Virus record (IMG/VR): IMGVR_UViG_3300025892_000207
Location: 1-20,329 of that record
Source: a virus
Strand: one strand, 5' to 3'
DNA length: 20,329 nt
How positions within the stretch are numbered: position 1 is the stretch's first letter; every line of letters starts with the position of its first letter. The notes under the pieces are model-generated. The model was given only the letters and a program-made list of their open reading frames with translations. It was not told the DNA's origin and ran no database searches. Positions 4,949 to 14,672 of the stretch are shown here, piece after piece. The position numbers were made by a program, and so were the translations under genes.

Positions 4949-5168
4949 TTTTCTTACTCCGGGATGTCTTAATAGAAAATTCGAAATAGATAGTTACTTC
5001 CCGTCTCAGAAAGCAGACCATCTTTTCAAAGATAATATGAAATGGTTGTGTCTGCTTTCTTTTTCCCCCATTAAGTAAGAATTCAACACCACGATTTCTG
5101 TGGTCTTCATTTTTATTTATGTTAAGACCTGATGACTTGTTGTTCTCTGAGGAATTTGATTGTGTCAA
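4935..5168 (-). CDS. Possible overlapping small gene, unknown
   Basis: An open frame of 77 residues fills the 173-base gap between glutaredoxin and the membrane-protein gene, with 47 bases inside the glutaredoxin frame. No in-frame ATG is available near the start; a TTG at 5168-5166 has AGGAGG 5 bases upstream, although that AGGAGG also encodes the glutaredoxin Gly-Gly motif. From residue 20 the sequence is protein-like, basic and aromatic (HRNRGVEFLL, QPFHIIFEKMVCFLRREV). It overlaps the next start by 14 bases. A rival reading is a 34-residue frame from the ATG at 5111-5109. Real coding is more likely than not, but the start is uncertain. Confidence 0.5.
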   Translation of the reverse strand: MTQSNSSENNKSSGLNINKNEDHRNRGVEFLLNGGKRKQTQPFHIIFEKMVCFLRREVTIYFEFSIKTSRSKKNVSN

Positions 5169-5364
5169 CACATCCTCCTAATTTTTTATTATCACATACT
5201 ACTTGTGGAAAAGTAGAACCTTTACCAAATTTAGCATAAAATTCTTCTCTTGTAAAGTCTTCTTCAAGTTTATAAGATTCAAAATCTGTACCGGTCAGTT
5301 CAAATACTTGTTTAATCTTATAACAGTGAGGACAATTTTCTTTTGTGTATACTTTGAAATTCAT
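5122..5364 (-). CDS. grx: Glutaredoxin
   Basis: 80-residue thioredoxin-fold protein with the redox motif CPHC at residues 9-12, the cis-proline segment TFPQV near residues 49-53 and the glutathione-binding LGGCVDT near 60-66. Length and order of motifs are those of class I glutaredoxins, which in T4-like phages (nrdC) donate electrons to ribonucleotide reductase. The ATG at 5364-5362 starts right before the first beta strand (NFKVYT); an alternative non-ATG start at 5403 adds 13 basic residues and is unlikely. It is preceded by a 118-base gap that holds no confident gene. Confidence 0.92.
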   Translation of the reverse strand: MNFKVYTKENCPHCYKIKQVFELTGTDFESYKLEEDFTREEFYAKFGKGSTFPQVVCDNKKLGGCVDTIKFLREQQVIRS

Positions 5365-5482
5365 TTTTTTCTTATAAACAATTAAATTTTTTATATATAA
5401 CACTCCACTTCCTGATAATATAAAATGGAGAGTATTGAAATTTTATCTAATAGTTCTCTTACAGAGATTGATATAGTAATTA
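5365..5482. other. Intergenic gap ahead of glutaredoxin
   Basis: This AT-rich gap has two imperfect dyads. One is TCTCT-TAC-AGAGA (5455-5467). The other is a roughly 7-of-8 bp pairing of ACTCCA with TGGAG across 5402-5433. A TATAAATG (5491-5484), one base off the late-promoter box, overlaps the end of the upstream oxygenase gene. No U-tract follows either hairpin, so I do not call a terminator. Confidence 0.3.
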
Positions 5483-6013
5483 TCATTTATATAAAATGCC
5501 GTTATTTTCAGTATTAAAATTAATTTGTAAATTAAAAGACATAATGATTCTTATTTCATTAGATAAATTAGATGGTGCATAATGTAATAGATTTGAAGGA
5601 AAAAATATTATATCACTCTCTTCTACATCAGGTTCATATCTTTCCAATTCTCCTGTAATATAATTTCCAAAGGGCGAAATAAAAGTTGTTGGTTTATGCA
5701 AATTCTTATCATACTCTATAAAACAAACTGAAGAAAATCCTGTTGGTCCGTGAGTATGAACTGCATGATTCATACTATTTTCATATTTTTGAAACCAAAC
5801 TTCACTAGAAGAAAACTTCATTTGAATATCTTCTTCAAATACTTTAATTTCTTCTAAAAGTATATTTGTCTTAATATCAATAGGACTTGTGATTACATTA
5901 CCAACTACTTTATTTTGCAAATTATTAAATAAATCTAATAATTTTTTCTTTTTAATTTTCCAATTTTGAACTTTATACTTATAAATTGGAATAGAAAATG
6001 CAAGGTTTTTCAT
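5483..6013 (-). CDS. 2OG-Fe(II) oxygenase-like protein (copy 3)
   Basis: 176 residues from the ATG at 6013-6011. The C-terminal half has the pattern of the phage 2OG-Fe(II) oxygenase family (Pfam 2OG-FeII_Oxy_5 type): HTHG with H86 and H88, then a strand block FSSVCFIEY, then FFPSNLLHYAPSN giving the distal ligand candidate H144, and R155 in EIRIIMSFN as the 2-oxoglutarate-binding arginine. Such enzymes hydroxylate protein, sugar or small substrates in marine phages; the substrate here is unknown. GFSSVCFIEY deviates from the usual SGVYYL. A sigma70-like promoter (6096-6068) lies directly upstream, separating it from the cysteine-synthase gene. Confidence 0.75.
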   Translation of the reverse strand: MKNLAFSIPIYKYKVQNWKIKKKKLLDLFNNLQNKVVGNVITSPIDIKTNILLEEIKVFEEDIQMKFSSSEVWFQKYENSMNHAVHTHGPTGFSSVCFIEYDKNLHKPTTFISPFGNYITGELERYEPDVEESDIIFFPSNLLHYAPSNLSNEIRIIMSFNLQINFNTENNGILYK

Positions 6014-6067
6014 ATAAAGTTTCACGATCAATTTTTACAAAAAATTTGATATAGTATATATTTTTAT

Positions 6068-6096
6068 ACTCTAGTACGCAGTGGTCAATTTGTCAA
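6068..6096 (-). promoter_or_regulatory. Sigma70-like promoter
   Basis: A perfect -35 TTGACA (6096-6091) and TAGAGT (6073-6068, 4 of 6 matches to TATAAT) are spaced by 17 bases. It overlaps the stop codon of the cysteine-synthase gene and precedes the oxygenase start by about 55 bases. The weak -10 leaves doubt. Confidence 0.5.
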
Positions 6097-7067
6097 GTAT
6101 CTTTCTGAAAAACTTCCAATTTTTTAGATTTTAACCATTTCTCATCATAAAATGTTGATGAATATCTGTCACCAGAATCATACAATACGGTAACTATAGT
6201 ATGACCTGGACCTAATTCTTTTGCCGTTTCTATTGATGCATATATATTTGCTCCAGAAATTGGTCCCAAATATAATCCCTCCTTTCTGAGAGTATAAAGC
6301 ATATTATTCAGACAATCTTGATCTTTCACACAAATTGCATCATCAATAAAAGAATGATTTAAATTGCGAGTAATCACAGTATTACCGACTTCTTCAAGAT
6401 TAGTACTTCCTAGACCTCGAATCAGTATTTCACCAAGAGTCGCCCAGTTATATACCACACTTCCAAGAGAATCAACTACAACACATTTTATCTTTTTATT
6501 TTGCTTCTTTAAAAATGATGATACTCCAGAATAAGTTCCTCCACTTCTTGTAGAACATACCCAAGCATCAATTTTTCCATTTGTCTGATTCCATATTTCC
6601 ACTGCCGTTGAATTTTGATGTGTTTCTTTATTTGCAGAATTTTCAAAGTAGTTACACCAGAAAACATTCGAGAATTGATTTGCCATTTTTTCAGGAATCT
6701 TAGAATAATGATTTTCATCAGTTTCTGGAACTACCGGAACCTCAATAACATTAGCACCAAATCTTCTCATTAATTCAATTTTTTGATTACTCCCATTCTC
6801 TGGAATTACAATAGAGCATTGATAATTTAAAGAATTGCATAAAAGTGCAAGACTGACTCCAAAGTTTTCCGTGGTTGCCTCAACAATTACATCATTTGGT
6901 TTAAGTAGTCCTTTATTTTCTGCATCTCTTATAATTCCAAGAGCGGTTCTATCTTTGATTGAACCACCTGGATTCATAAATTCTGCTTTCGCAAGAATCT
7001 CACAACCAGTCATATCACTGATTGCATTGAGACGAATTAAAGGTGTATTTCCAATAGCACTATACAT
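6093..7067 (-). CDS. cysK: Cysteine synthase-like PLP enzyme
   Basis: 324 residues of the fold-type II PLP family, the length of bacterial CysK, which makes cysteine from O-acetylserine and sulfide. Seen: GNTPLIRL at residues 6-13; PGGSIKDR at 33-40 with the PLP lysine K38; NYFENSANKETH near 139-150; SGGT at 175-178 for the PLP phosphate; and DSGDRYSST near the C-terminus. Changed: the substrate loop normally TSGNTG is TTENFG (65-70), keeping only the asparagine N68, and the usual GTGGT reads RSGGT. It may act on a different acceptor or nucleophile. It is preceded by a late-promoter-like box 27 bases upstream. Fold confidence is high, exact reaction moderate. Confidence 0.85.
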   Translation of the reverse strand: MYSAIGNTPLIRLNAISDMTGCEILAKAEFMNPGGSIKDRTALGIIRDAENKGLLKPNDVIVEATTENFGVSLALLCNSLNYQCSIVIPENGSNQKIELMRRFGANVIEVPVVPETDENHYSKIPEKMANQFSNVFWCNYFENSANKETHQNSTAVEIWNQTNGKIDAWVCSTRSGGTYSGVSSFLKKQNKKIKCVVVDSLGSVVYNWATLGEILIRGLGSTNLEEVGNTVITRNLNHSFIDDAICVKDQDCLNNMLYTLRKEGLYLGPISGANIYASIETAKELGPGHTIVTVLYDSGDRYSSTFYDEKWLKSKKLEVFQKDT

Positions 7068-7093
7068 TGTGATTAAAAAATAATTAAAGTTTA

Positions 7094-7101
7094 TATTTAT
7101 T
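7094..7101 (-). promoter_or_regulatory. Late-promoter-like box ahead of cysK
   Basis: AATAAATA on the minus strand, one base from the T4 late consensus TATAAATA, ending 27 bases before the ATG of the cysteine-synthase gene. The same spacing is seen for the perfect box at 8535-8542. In AT-rich DNA a single 7-of-8 match can be chance; the spacing and the intergenic position are the support. Confidence 0.45.
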
Positions 7102-7150
7102 CTACACTTATCATTAGTACAGATTGTACTATCTTCAAGAAAAGAAAATC

Positions 7151-7222
7151 TTAATTTAAAATTGAGTTTTTTACTTTTATAAACTTTTCTTCAGTCAGAA
7201 AATTATCAATAACTTCATGCAT
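7151..7222 (-). pseudogene. Likely truncated remnant of a 2OG-Fe(II) oxygenase gene
   Basis: A 23-codon frame, starting MHEVIDNFLTEEKF and ending KVKNSILN before TAA at 7153-7151. This opening (VIDNFLxxxxFxxIxxxI) is how many phage prolyl-hydroxylase-like 2OG oxygenases begin, normally followed by a FPWYY-type segment and about 180 more residues, which are absent. It overlaps the DUF6165 stop by 8 bases. I read it as the stump of a deleted gene. A genuine short peptide is possible but less likely. The other 80 or so bases of this gap hold the cysK late-type box and no gene. Confidence 0.4.
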
Positions 7223-7574
7223 AACATTTTACTTCTTGATAATATGAGTTTGTTTTTTCGTTAATTTGTTTTTTGATAAGTGCTCTTTGGTCGTTTGTTT
7301 GATATACCTGTCTTGCAAGTTCTATAAAAGTTGAAGAAAAGTCTTGTTTCTTTTCTAGTTCACGGAGATGGTCTTCTATAATCCAAAGTTTTAAATTGAC
7401 CTCTTTAAGTTCTTGAAGATCTTGTTTGTTATAAACTTGATGTTCTTTTGCTGTATTAATTAAATCAGTGAGTTCTTTTTGAATATATGAATTATTAGAA
7501 TATTGTGATTTAATTTGGAGAATTGTGATTTTATCAAGTAATTCACCGACTGATATTGGTGTTTTAATTATCAT
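7215..7574 (-). CDS. DUF6165-like protein
   Basis: 119 residues with the pattern I recall for DUF6165: ISVGELLDKITIL at residues 7-19, a leucine-rich helix, LKEVNLKLWIIEDHLRELE near 56-74, DFSSTFIELARQVYQTNDQRALIKKQIN near 78-105. Almost wholly helical. In bacteria such genes sit near surface-polysaccharide loci; the biochemical role is not known. Here it lies 10 bases downstream of DUF1566 gene A and close to the glycan-enzyme block, consistent with that context. No enzyme motif is visible. Confidence 0.75.
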   Translation of the reverse strand: MIIKTPISVGELLDKITILQIKSQYSNNSYIQKELTDLINTAKEHQVYNKQDLQELKEVNLKLWIIEDHLRELEKKQDFSSTFIELARQVYQTNDQRALIKKQINEKTNSYYQEVKCYA

Positions 7575-7575
7575 T

Positions 7576-7614
7576 GTACAAAGTTCAATAAGTCACACAC
7601 CTGAAGGCACGAAC
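7576..7614 (-). repeat. Shared 3'-end repeat, copy A
   Basis: A 39-base stretch covering the last ten codons, stop and 9 bases beyond the DUF1566 A gene. It is identical to copy C (14193-14231), and 36 of these bases are identical in copy B (8047-8082). Conservation continues past the stop codon, so it is not explained by protein constraint alone. Confidence 0.9.
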
Positions 7615-8004
7615 ACAATTTGTAGACCCACTTGGACTCCGAGCTACACCACCATTTATAAAGCTCACATAGTATCCGCATACACCACTGGTGTAGATAG
7701 TAGAGCTCCAGTATACGGATTCACTGTAACTGTCCCAATGTGTTCTACAAGTGTATCCTGGGTTAGATAGTTGTGCAGATGTTGGTATGAACCAGTTGGT
7801 GGGTCCAGTACATTCAGTGGCGGTTATAATTGCATCATTGTTGCCCCAGGTTCTTGAGACCTCAGAGGATGCTGGTGCTACAATCCAGGCGACGGATCCA
7901 CCAGATCGGCAAATTAAATATCCTCCATTTATTTTACCACCAAGTGATGCCGATTGTACACTTTCAGATTCTTGCCAACATGTTGGTCCTACTAAAATTC
8001 CCAT
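7585..8004 (-). CDS. DUF1566/Lcl-C-like lectin-fold protein A
   Basis: 139 residues. Shares with paralogues B and C the blocks ICRSGGSVAWIVAPASSEVSR (N-terminal third), NWFIPTSAQLSNPGYTCRT (middle), YWSS, and the terminal NCVRAFRCVTY. The WxxPTxxxL...YWSST pattern is that of DUF1566/Lcl C-terminal domains, a compact C-type-lectin/FGE-like fold often used in adhesins. Conserved Cys residues may form disulfides. Position near the fibre genes suggests a receptor-contacting tip or decoration protein; this is inference. The segment between YWSS and CVRAFRC differs strongly between copies. No ribosome site is evident; an AATAAATA box lies 19 bases upstream. Confidence 0.75.
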   Translation of the reverse strand: MGILVGPTCWQESESVQSASLGGKINGGYLICRSGGSVAWIVAPASSEVSRTWGNNDAIITATECTGPTNWFIPTSAQLSNPGYTCRTHWDSYSESVYWSSTIYTSGVCGYYVSFINGGVARSPSGSTNCVRAFRCVTY

Positions 8005-8046: not shown

Positions 8047-8082
8047 CAAAGTTCAATAAGTCACACACCTGAAGGCACGAAC
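8047..8082 (-). repeat. Shared 3'-end repeat, copy B
   Basis: 36 bases identical to the ends of DUF1566 genes A and C. Next to it a short partial duplication (GTACAAAGT and again CAAAGT on the plus strand, 8038-8052) marks the junction where the longer 39-base identity of A and C is interrupted. Confidence 0.9.
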
Positions 8083-8508
8083 ACAAAAGGTGCCCGTGTT
8101 GGTTGATCCAGCGGAATTATGAAGGAGACTGACCCAACATACGTAAGCGGGGTTTACAGAGATACACTGACAAGACCAGTAATTCGTAGAGTTGTTATCC
8201 CAATGTGTTCTACAAGTGTATCCCGGATTGAGTAGTTGTGCAACGGTGGGTAAAAACCATCCACATGGATTACCTGCTGAACCTGCACTTGCCGAAACGG
8301 CATTTGTCATAGCAGCGGCGGTTGTGACGGCATCAAAACGATCAGATTTTGTTCTCGAAACCTCAGTGGATTCTGGTGCTACAATCCAGGTTACTCCACC
8401 ATTCCTACAGATTACATATCCTCCCGTTGGTACTAGGTGACCTATCGGAGAACATTCAATAATATAAGAATCTCCAACAGTTTTAGAAGGACCAAAAGTA
8501 AGGGTCAT
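8053..8508 (-). CDS. DUF1566/Lcl-C-like lectin-fold protein B
   Basis: 151 residues. Family blocks: YVICRNGGVTWIVAPESTEVSR, GWFLPTVAQLLNPGYTCRTHWD, YWSC where the other copies have YWSS or YWST, and CVRAFRCVTY at the C-terminus. It carries an Ala/Ser-rich insert (AAAMTNAVSASAGSAG) that A lacks. The probable role is adhesion or receptor contact in the virion, as for the paralogues. A perfect late-promoter box, TATAAATA at 8542-8535, ends 27 bases before the ATG and overlaps the stop codon of the GT9-like gene, so B and probably A start a late transcript. No clear Shine-Dalgarno. Confidence 0.75.
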   Translation of the reverse strand: MTLTFGPSKTVGDSYIIECSPIGHLVPTGGYVICRNGGVTWIVAPESTEVSRTKSDRFDAVTTAAAMTNAVSASAGSAGNPCGWFLPTVAQLLNPGYTCRTHWDNNSTNYWSCQCISVNPAYVCWVSLLHNSAGSTNTGTFCVRAFRCVTY

Positions 8509-12034: not shown

Positions 12035-12681
12035 TGATAAGAAAAGGTATTCTTTGGTGCAGCAAATACTAAATTACCAGCTATAGAAATACGATACTCA
12101 TCACTTGTGTAAAAAGGATTTACATTGTGCGATAATAAAGAAGGAAACATTATAATTGTTCCTTCATAAGTCTTATCTACATGAATGTTTTTTGTGTTAA
12201 GTCTTCCTAAAAAATCAGTAAAAGTAAATTGAAATAGGGAATTATCTGGAGTATTTGAATGTTTACAATTTGGTAGTGATAGTTCCTCTTTTAAATCATA
12301 AGGTATTGTAATCCATATAACAAATGATAACTCTCCATTATGATTGTGCATTGGATTATACTCATACTTTTTTTGAAAGTTAATCCATAGATCTTTAATT
12401 TTCCAGTTTGGATTTGGATAATGTTTATTTCCTTTATTTTCATAAGAATACTTATAAAACTCATTTGCAAGAGTAAATAAATCTTTCTCTAAAATTTCTT
12501 TACTCTTATAAGTTAAATATGCTTTCTCTAAATTTCCTGATAAGTAATTGTTATTTATTTTGAACTGACTTTGATTTTCAAGTATAAATTTTGCATCATT
12601 CTTAAGTTCTTTTAAAACATCACTTGATACTTTGGATTGAACATATAAAACATCTTGAGAATAAAAAGGTTCTATATTCAT
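12031..12681 (-). CDS. 2OG-Fe(II) oxygenase-like protein (copy 2)
   Basis: 216 residues. The jelly-roll half shows LWINFQKKYEYNPMHNHNGELSF with H112 and H114 as first-ligand candidates, GTIIMFPSLLSHNV with distal H185, and YRISIAGN with R197 for 2-oxoglutarate. The layout equals the copies at 13522 and 5483, but the usual SGVYYL strand reads LSFVIWI. The N-terminal 100 residues are Asn/Lys-rich and diverged. Overlap is TAATG with the sulfotransferase and ATGA with the next gene, placing it inside the glycan-enzyme operon. A sugar- or protein-hydroxylating role is inferred. Confidence 0.75.
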   Translation of the reverse strand: MNIEPFYSQDVLYVQSKVSSDVLKELKNDAKFILENQSQFKINNNYLSGNLEKAYLTYKSKEILEKDLFTLANEFYKYSYENKGNKHYPNPNWKIKDLWINFQKKYEYNPMHNHNGELSFVIWITIPYDLKEELSLPNCKHSNTPDNSLFQFTFTDFLGRLNTKNIHVDKTYEGTIIMFPSLLSHNVNPFYTSDEYRISIAGNLVFAAPKNTFSYQ

Positions 12682-13511
12682 TAGTTATACTCCATAAACT
12701 TCTTATCTAACTTTTTAATAATATCAACATCAGATTTATAATTTTTTCTCCAGAATTCCATATTCATTTCCTTATATTTCTTGACGATTTCTGGTGGAAG
12801 AATAATTCTTGGTGGTTTATATTCCACTCTTCTTTTCACTGTATGCAAATCCTTAAGATTACATGCCTTATCAAAGTTCTCATTTGAGTATTCTACATTC
12901 TCAAAGTCATGAGAATAATAAGGTTTCTCTAGGAACTCATAGACACCTCTCATTGTCTTTTCTGGTTCTTTACATAGGTTCTCATATTCAATAAAGTATA
13001 TCATCTCTGGATTGAGTGCAAATCCTTCTTGAAGGAAAGAGTAATAGTTAATTATTTCTCTTTGAAAAAGTTCATCAATTCTTATAAAAATATTTTGAGA
13101 AAATATTTTTTCATTAATTTGTTTAGTATAAAAACAATTTTTATTTAAAATAACTTCAAAGGAATTCAAAATTGAAACAATATCTCTTACAGGACATAAA
13201 ATCTTCGTATAAGGAAAGAGAGCACTAAGAAAGTTTGTTTTCTTTGTCCAATCTCTTGAACTATCAAAAATCACTGGTTCTTGAAGATGATTATAATAAC
13301 CTTCAAAAATTCCATACATTAGATTTTTTCTTTGATCTTCTGTGACTGTAAGATTACTTTCTGCACTAGTCACTATATCAATCGCAGTTCCTGTGAGTGC
13401 TTCTACTGGTGATGCAATATCAGCATAAAACTCTGGATTTTGTTTGAGTATTGATGAGAATAATGTAGAACCAGACCTAGGAAGTCCAGAGATGAAATAA
13501 TAAGATTTCAT
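12681..13511 (-). CDS. PAPS-dependent sulfotransferase
   Basis: 276 residues. The 5'-phosphosulfate-binding loop is GLPRSGSTL at residues 9-17, and the 3'-phosphate-binding segment CPVRDIVSILNSF has R109 and S117; both are diagnostic for the sulfotransferase family that moves sulfate from PAPS to hydroxyl or amino groups. The C-terminal half is helical with YEFLEKPYYSHDFENVEY, as in carbohydrate-type members. It lies between two 2OG oxygenases, 10 bases after the first and overlapping the second by one base. The likely acceptor is a glycan of the same cluster, by context only. It appears full length. Confidence 0.88.
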   Translation of the reverse strand: MKSYYFISGLPRSGSTLFSSILKQNPEFYADIASPVEALTGTAIDIVTSAESNLTVTEDQRKNLMYGIFEGYYNHLQEPVIFDSSRDWTKKTNFLSALFPYTKILCPVRDIVSILNSFEVILNKNCFYTKQINEKIFSQNIFIRIDELFQREIINYYSFLQEGFALNPEMIYFIEYENLCKEPEKTMRGVYEFLEKPYYSHDFENVEYSNENFDKACNLKDLHTVKRRVEYKPPRIILPPEIVKKYKEMNMEFWRKNYKSDVDIIKKLDKKFMEYN

Positions 13512-13521
13512 ATCTCAGGAC

Positions 13522-14139
13522 TCAGGATTGTGGATAATTAATAGTACCTTTTGGTAGGGCAATTAAATTAAAAGAAATTGAAATTCTTTCTTCGTCGTGA
13601 TTATTGGTTTCTACTGAATGAGGAAGATATGAAGGAAAGAGAATAATATTACCCTCTACTGGTTCAATACGGATACTTTCTCCAGTAAATTGATTTTTCT
13701 GTGAAGTAAGAGCACATCCATTCCACATACGATTGATTGCTGGATTTTGGAGTACCAGTTTTCCACTTTCATCAGGTGCTGAAAGATAGAAGACACCAGA
13801 GAATACTTCACGATTTACGTGTTCGGTATTCATACACTGGCGAGTATCATTAATATTCATCCACGCCGATGTGAGAGCAATATCACAGTCTACAAAGTCT
13901 AAATCTGCAGATGCCTTAAATCCCAACTGACAAAGATACTCAAAGAGTGGTCGTAGTTCTACAACACTTTGAAGTGTATCTGGAGATTGATAACCAGCAA
14001 TATTTGATCCTGATGTTTCTTTAGTTGGATTTTCTTCTTTATAAGTTCTTATTGCATTCAGGAAGATTTCTTTATGTTCCTCAAACTCTGGGTATTCACT
14101 TTGCCAGAGGGGAACAGAATAAATTGGCATTAAGTTCAT
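13522..14139 (-). CDS. 2OG-Fe(II) oxygenase (copy 1, most typical)
   Basis: 205 residues with the clearest family signature of the three: AWMNIN then NTEHVNREVFSGVFYLSAP with ligand H107, LQNPAINRMW, GNIILFPSYLPHSV with H174, and ERISISFN with R185 binding 2-oxoglutarate. This is the Pfam 2OG-FeII_Oxy_5 pattern common in marine phages, where the target is usually unknown. The ATG at 14139 or a second at 14130 could serve; neither has a strong ribosome site. The 62 bases up to DUF1566 gene C are very AT-rich and may hold a promoter I cannot define. First gene of the enzyme operon. Confidence 0.85.
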   Translation of the reverse strand: MNLMPIYSVPLWQSEYPEFEEHKEIFLNAIRTYKEENPTKETSGSNIAGYQSPDTLQSVVELRPLFEYLCQLGFKASADLDFVDCDIALTSAWMNINDTRQCMNTEHVNREVFSGVFYLSAPDESGKLVLQNPAINRMWNGCALTSQKNQFTGESIRIEPVEGNIILFPSYLPHSVETNNHDEERISISFNLIALPKGTINYPQS

Positions 14140-14192: not shown

Positions 14193-14231
14193 GTACAAAG
14201 TTCAATAAGTCACACACCTGAAGGCACGAAC
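14193..14231 (-). repeat. Shared 3'-end repeat, copy C
   Basis: 39 bases identical to 7576-7614 and, over 36 bases, to 8047-8082. It covers the last codons, the stop and the 9 bases after the DUF1566 C gene. All three copies are in direct orientation. Confidence 0.9.
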
Positions 14232-14672
14232 GCATCGTCCGCTCACGCACGACGATCTAGTGATCTGCCCCGTTACCATGGAAACTATGGTTTTAGTTGA
14301 TGCAGGATATGCGGGATAACCTGATGTAGACCAATAGTAGTTGTTGGAGTAACTGTCCCAATATGTTCTACAAGTGTATCCTGGGTTAGATAGTTGTGAA
14401 CAATTTGGTATGAACCAGACACTGCAACAGACAGCACCTGTATGGTTCTGGATTGGAGAAGTATAGCTTGCGGAACTATTCTCAGCAGTATAGGCAGATG
14501 CACATGTGATGGCATCACCAATATCGTTCCAGTTTCTCGAAACCTCAGTGACTGCTGGTGCTACAATCCAGATAATACCACCGGTTTTACAGATGACATT
14601 TCCTCCAACTGATTCCCCTAAAGAATGACTTTGATTAAACTGCTCTAATGTTCTACCAACGACGATTGTCAT
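14202..14672 (-). CDS. DUF1566/Lcl-C-like lectin-fold protein C
   Basis: 156 residues. Blocks: GGNVICKTGGIIWIVAPAVTEVSR, VWFIPNCSQLSNPGYTCRTYWDSYS, YYWST, RCVRAFRCVTY. It has extra cysteines (VCCSVW) in a longer central insert than A. A good ribosome site (AGGAG, spacing about 6) precedes the ATG, which lies 2 bases after the stop of the 251-residue gene, so it is co-transcribed from the late box at 15455. Like A and B it is probably a small adhesin or fibre-tip protein; its placement directly after the fibre genes supports that. Structural role is inference. Confidence 0.75.
   Translation of the reverse strand: MTIVVGRTLEQFNQSHSLGESVGGNVICKTGGIIWIVAPAVTEVSRNWNDIGDAITCASAYTAENSSASYTSPIQNHTGAVCCSVWFIPNCSQLSNPGYTCRTYWDSYSNNYYWSTSGYPAYPASTKTIVSMVTGQITRSSCVSGRCVRAFRCVTY

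Follow-up and report, generated by a model that had tools for sequence, protein, structure and literature searches.

Cysteine synthase genes carried by phages are, in general, already known. The Lactococcus P087 group and other phages encode a homologue, and viral cysK or cysK/M genes have been described from metagenomes in the accessible parts of PMC8725595 and PMC6359870, while the accessible text of a review (PMC10452541) records that host cysteine synthase A is still made in Synechococcus during infection by phage S-SM1. The closest described relatives of the protein considered here are the long-type CysK of picocyanobacteria, to which it is ~52% identical at most, and the Brucella structures 5jis and 5i7w, all of which share with it the fold, the length, the C-terminal extension and the characteristic Lys and Asn residues. 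CapA (9k2p) and SbnA belong to the same fold-type II group and have other substrates, and CapA1 retains SSGNTG, unlike the TTENFG of the phage protein. In Caenorhabditis elegans, according to the available portion of PMC5562914, the CysK homologue CYSL-1 has lost biosynthesis and binds the EGL-9 hydroxylase.

Metabolic genes found in phages are generally taken to be copies of the host function, and enter ecological counts on that basis. If the pocket of such an enzyme were rebuilt and conserved, a cysteine synthase gene would be miscounted as sulfur assimilation, and it would make a clear test case of how much change a fold-type II PLP site can undergo, and to what end. In open-licence papers, as far as their accessible text extends, no altered phage cysteine synthase pocket was found.

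A CysK-like protein in a T4-like Synechococcus phage

The window, a stretch of 20,329 nucleotides of viral DNA (IMG/VR record IMGVR_UViG_3300025892_000207), matches Synechococcus phage S-SKS1 at 91% over its first 5.4 kb. Since the matching S-SKS1 stretch is annotated with gp59-like, gp33-like, exonuclease, thymidylate synthase and NrdC genes, the source of the window is a T4-like Synechococcus phage related to S-SKS1. The S-SKS1 record has no cysteine synthase-like gene annotated at the corresponding place and, of the 74 phage records that contain a homologue, none is named Synechococcus, Prochlorococcus or Cyanophage, in support of the earlier view that cysteine synthase is not usual in T4-like cyanophages.

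The CysK-like fold that the first-pass annotation had proposed is borne out by a PF00291 (PALP) score of 215.5 bits, against a threshold of 35, and by an AlphaFold2 model (pLDDT 93.3, pTM 0.92); score and fold together place it among the fold-type II PLP (PALP) proteins. The nearest solved structures are those of Brucella CysK, the model superposing on 5jis with a Z of 45.6 and an rmsd of 1.6 over 320 residues at 43% identity. The top NCBIfam model is NF007989 (PRK10717 cysteine synthase A), with 384.6 bits narrowly below the curated cut-off of 387, and the scores against SbnA (213 versus 349.95) and the cysteate synthase CapA (224.1 versus 600) fall far below the curated NCBIfam cut-offs.

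Substitutions in the active site

The protein was aligned with 80 cellular homologues, the best of 586 confirmed relatives with cyanobacteria leading, and with 79 viral rows, several of which are near-identical contigs. The viral set consists of the best 80 of 101 confirmed loci, minus L001 (the second copy, described below) and the L002 duplicate, plus L002; Lactococcus phage homologues are not part of it. The earlier numbering of K38, the TTENFG loop (65-70), E67 and F69 is confirmed in the open reading frame (Table 1).

Table 1. Features of the CysK-like gene, its protein and its surroundings, in window coordinates
Feature	Position	Strand	Evidence or remark
CysK-like gene, 324 aa, long (PRK10717) type	6093..7067	-	ORF with ATG start
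K38, Schiff-base lysine, kept	6954..6956	-	K in 80/80 cellular, 79/79 viral
Substrate loop T65-T-E-N-F-G70 (usual TSGNTG; subfamily TAGNTG)	6858..6875	-	identical in L001
Y140, replacing carboxylate-binding Gln	6648..6650	-	Q in 80/80 cellular, 79/79 viral
Phosphate loop R174-S-G-G-T178 (usual G-T/S-G-G-T)	6534..6548	-	174 is G in 80/80 cellular, 79/79 viral
I270, likely replacing PLP-contacting Ser/Thr	6258..6260	-	cellular S 76/80, T 4/80; viral S 79/79
ATAAATA late-type box, 26 nt before ATG	7094..7100	-	GTAAATG at same spot in L001
2OG-Fe(II)-oxygenase-like remnant, two ends kept, middle lost	7077..7222	-	tblastn pieces 7139-7222, 7077-7136
DUF6165, upstream neighbour	7215..7574	-	PF19662 1.4e-13
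2OG-Fe(II) oxygenase, downstream neighbour	5483..6031	-	PF13759 1.1e-7; phrog_81
Glutaredoxin (NrdC-like)	5122..5403	-	PF00462; directly downstream of CysK-like gene in L001
Three small paralogous proteins	7585-8004, 8053-8508, 14202-14672	-	no Pfam hits
Sulfotransferase	12681-13511	-	PF13469
Probable tail-fibre protein, 1549 aa	15466-20115	-	long internal repeats

Two hallmarks of O-acetylserine sulfhydrylases are present, the Schiff-base lysine (K38) and the PLP-contacting asparagine of the loop (N68). Absent are the carboxylate-binding TSGNT loop and Gln (T-T-E-N-F and Y140 in the phage protein) and the G-T-G-G-T loop and PLP-contacting Ser (R-S-G-G-T and I270). At position 67 all 159 homologues have G where the phage protein has E; at position 69, F in the phage protein, every cellular row has T and the viral ones have S, T, M or A. 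None of the 80 cellular or 79 viral homologues has E67, F69, Y140, R174 or I270, and L001 carries the phage state at all five positions. Unlike the query, the IMG/VR viral homologues, in all 79 aligned rows, still have G in the TSGN motif, Q in NQF and the phosphate-loop glycine. Where long-type CysK has EGTAGNTG, NQF, G(T/S)GGT and GGSVGIN, the phage protein has EATTENFG, NYF, RSGGT and GPISGAN, respectively. The altered loop reported by the first-pass annotation thus stands, and is the same in L001, but the phosphate loop that it described as intact is not, given R174 and I270; the changes of Q to Y140 and of S/T to I270 are alterations beyond those that it listed.

I270 likely aligns with the PLP-contacting Ser (in an ungapped alignment), a residue that we take to be Ser272 of Salmonella CysK. 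The accessible text of PMC12895370 numbers this residue Ser274 and lists 12 residues of Pseudomonas aeruginosa CysK that contact alpha-aminoacrylate or PLP. Mapped onto the phage protein by hand via alignment motifs, six of these 12 are kept (K38, T65, N68, G176, T178 and D297), two are mildly altered (T66 and S175) and four radically (F69, Y140, R174 and I270). The roles of CysK residues are also treated in the available parts of PMC3805590, PMC3388911 and PMC9547175.

The retention of Lys and Asn and a score close to the NF007989 cut-off could be taken to mean that the protein is still an ordinary cysteine synthase in which the substitutions are tolerated. With that score just under the cut-off, and four contacts radically changed to states found in 0 of 159 homologues, this seems unlikely; judged from its residues, the phage protein probably does not make cysteine by the usual route any more.

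The reading towards which we lean, tentatively, is that of a captured long-type CysK with a retooled pocket, which would keep PLP, take a different ligand and be made late. A T4-like Synechococcus phage lineage would have acquired the gene long ago from a Cyanobium/Synechococcus-like host, retaining the fold together with the Schiff-base lysine and the PLP-contacting asparagine, as well as the larger part of the phosphate loop. The alpha-carboxylate clamp for O-acetylserine (Thr72 and Gln142 in CysK numbering) would have given way to F69 and Y140, the loop glycine to E67, the first phosphate-loop glycine to R174 and the PLP-contacting Ser/Thr to I270. Such a protein would no longer be an ordinary O-acetylserine sulfhydrylase; it would still bind PLP and act on another ligand, one that is probably larger or carries a different charge, and would be made late in infection together with the surrounding genes. 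However, I270 and R174 argue against normal PLP binding.

It is possible, if doubtful, that catalysis has instead been lost and that the fold serves as a binding protein, either through dimer mixing with host CysK or through a partner protein. This would fit the joint loss of Thr72, Gln142, the first phosphate-loop glycine and the PLP-contacting Ser in a fold that is itself preserved, and CYSL-1 (PMC5562914, in its accessible portion) would be the precedent. Yet both copies retain K38, N68, SGGT and D297, which a pure binder could do without; furthermore, the tail-binding pocket known from the available text of PMC3805590 involves Thr68 and Thr72, and Thr72 is gone.

Conservation and divergence of the two copies

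The sole further copy found lies on L001, a metagenomic contig of IMG/VR, and encodes a protein of 322 aa that is 88% identical to that of the window. When the TTENFG loop was searched as a DNA pattern in IMG/VR, it matched L001 and one terminase (a chance match), and patterns for RSGGTYSG and YLGPISGANI matched L001 only. None of 400 genomes of the picocyanobacterial family contained the loop as an exact codon pattern, a search that misses variants. The altered pocket is known from two sequences only.

Over 322 codons the two genes differ with a dN of 0.072 and a dS of 0.417 (dN/dS 0.17, Nei-Gojobori), and 282 of 322 aligned residues are equal. The gene is under purifying selection and the altered pocket is present in both copies. 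The same changes in L001, combined with this ratio, mean that there has been no drift in one copy; the earlier alternative, in which the loop had merely drifted and close relatives retained TSGNTG, is ruled against, as L001 also has TTENFG. That the gene is decaying and on its way out is most improbable. The adjacent upstream gene has itself been reduced to a remnant, but here the frames of 324 and 322 aa are intact in two phages, the pocket residues are identical in both copies and dN/dS stands at the value given above.

Among the 122 columns that are at least 95% conserved in the 80 cellular rows, 16 of 40 in active-site stretches have changed against 16 of 82 elsewhere, an excess with a Fisher p of 0.027 that is uncorrected and based on hand-chosen stretches. 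The phage protein is thus widely diverged, changes being somewhat over-represented at the pocket. Of these 122 columns, only 5 and 3 are changed in two viral homologues that belong to the same subfamily.

Phylogenetic origin

Within the best 80 of 586 cellular relatives, the cyanobacterial rows are 47-52% identical to the phage protein. In a tree without an outgroup, the pair formed by the window and L001 joins eight picocyanobacterial rows with a support of 98/93, the stem measuring about 2.0 changes per site. When 11 distant viral rows are included as an outgroup, the pair no longer groups within the 64 other rows and stands apart from every cellular row of the subfamily, a placement that resembles what long branches tend to do; in both trees the rows nearest to the pair by path are picocyanobacterial. 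The first-pass annotation had allowed that the protein might group with common host CysK without a functional shift: a link to host CysK is recovered, but via a branch of that length. Capture from a picocyanobacterial host is likely, although the branch is too long for certainty.

Long-type CysK, at a match of at least 250 bits, is present in 90 of 201 genomes of one picocyanobacterial family (counted by hand), the best matches of the other genomes being at most 157 bits among the matches listed. The carriers are mostly larger genomes, and most of the small ones are without it. A viral CysK/CysM-like family (L002 and L090-L166 of IMG/VR), ~33% identical to the query, has an intact pocket and is present on many contigs; the two of these that were tested had no near phage record.

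Gene neighbourhood and the late-type box

The window and L001 share an order of Pfam-less genes, DUF6165 (assigned in L001 by alignment and translation, not Pfam), an oxygenase or its remnant, the CysK-like gene and glutaredoxin, and only the window has an extra 2OG oxygenase between the last two. The remnant contains a stop and lacks about 114 middle codons. Its intact counterpart, a protein of 162 aa, is encoded directly upstream of the CysK-like gene in L001 (2591-3079); it has no Pfam hit and is tied to the 2OG oxygenases by a weak match to 13522-14139 of the window (5e-4).

The partner of CYSL-1 is a 2OG hydroxylase (PMC5562914, accessible text), and the phage gene adjoins 2OG oxygenases. 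By analogy, a repurposed CysK might sense a thiol, sulfide or amino-acid signal and bind the neighbouring 2OG-Fe(II) oxygenase, as an independent counterpart of CYSL-1/EGL-9. Five bases separate the two genes in L001, and a 2OG oxygenase lies directly downstream in the window. However, 2OG oxygenases are common in the region, the window has only a broken copy of the upstream one, and the C-terminal Ile of a CYSL-1-like partner is absent, the downstream oxygenase ending in ILYK and that of L001 in FNYF; we regard such a pairing as very improbable.

The late-type box suggested by the first-pass annotation is present, with the spacing found before S-SKS1 tail genes, but is not conserved in L001, which has no late box next to its CysK-like gene. 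ATAAATA occurs seven times in the window, a total not above chance (shuffle mean 9.96). All seven sites are on the coding strand and five, against an expected 0.6, are 18-29 nt ahead of a start. In two stretches of S-SKS1, 8 of 9 and 7 of 11 coding-strand sites lie at most 60 nt before a start, and the genes that they precede include, in partial gene lists, baseplate wedge, tail fibre and tail protein genes. Because such boxes sit before starts in both the window and S-SKS1, the ATAAATA upstream of the CysK-like gene is probably a late promoter, in the window only. In both the window and L001 the site coincides with the 3' end of a 2OG-oxygenase-like gene, and a leftover of coding sequence, inside the remnant and reading GTAAATG in L001, was considered as an explanation of the box; the positional test went against it. 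Coding-strand ATAAATA before starts, in the window as in S-SKS1, is a usable late-promoter signature.

Elsewhere in the window, three small paralogous proteins end in (V)RAFRCVTY and are possibly exchangeable receptor-binding or variable proteins, a sulfotransferase lies amid Pfam-less genes and 2OG oxygenases, and the translation of the probable tail-fibre gene contains long internal repeats.
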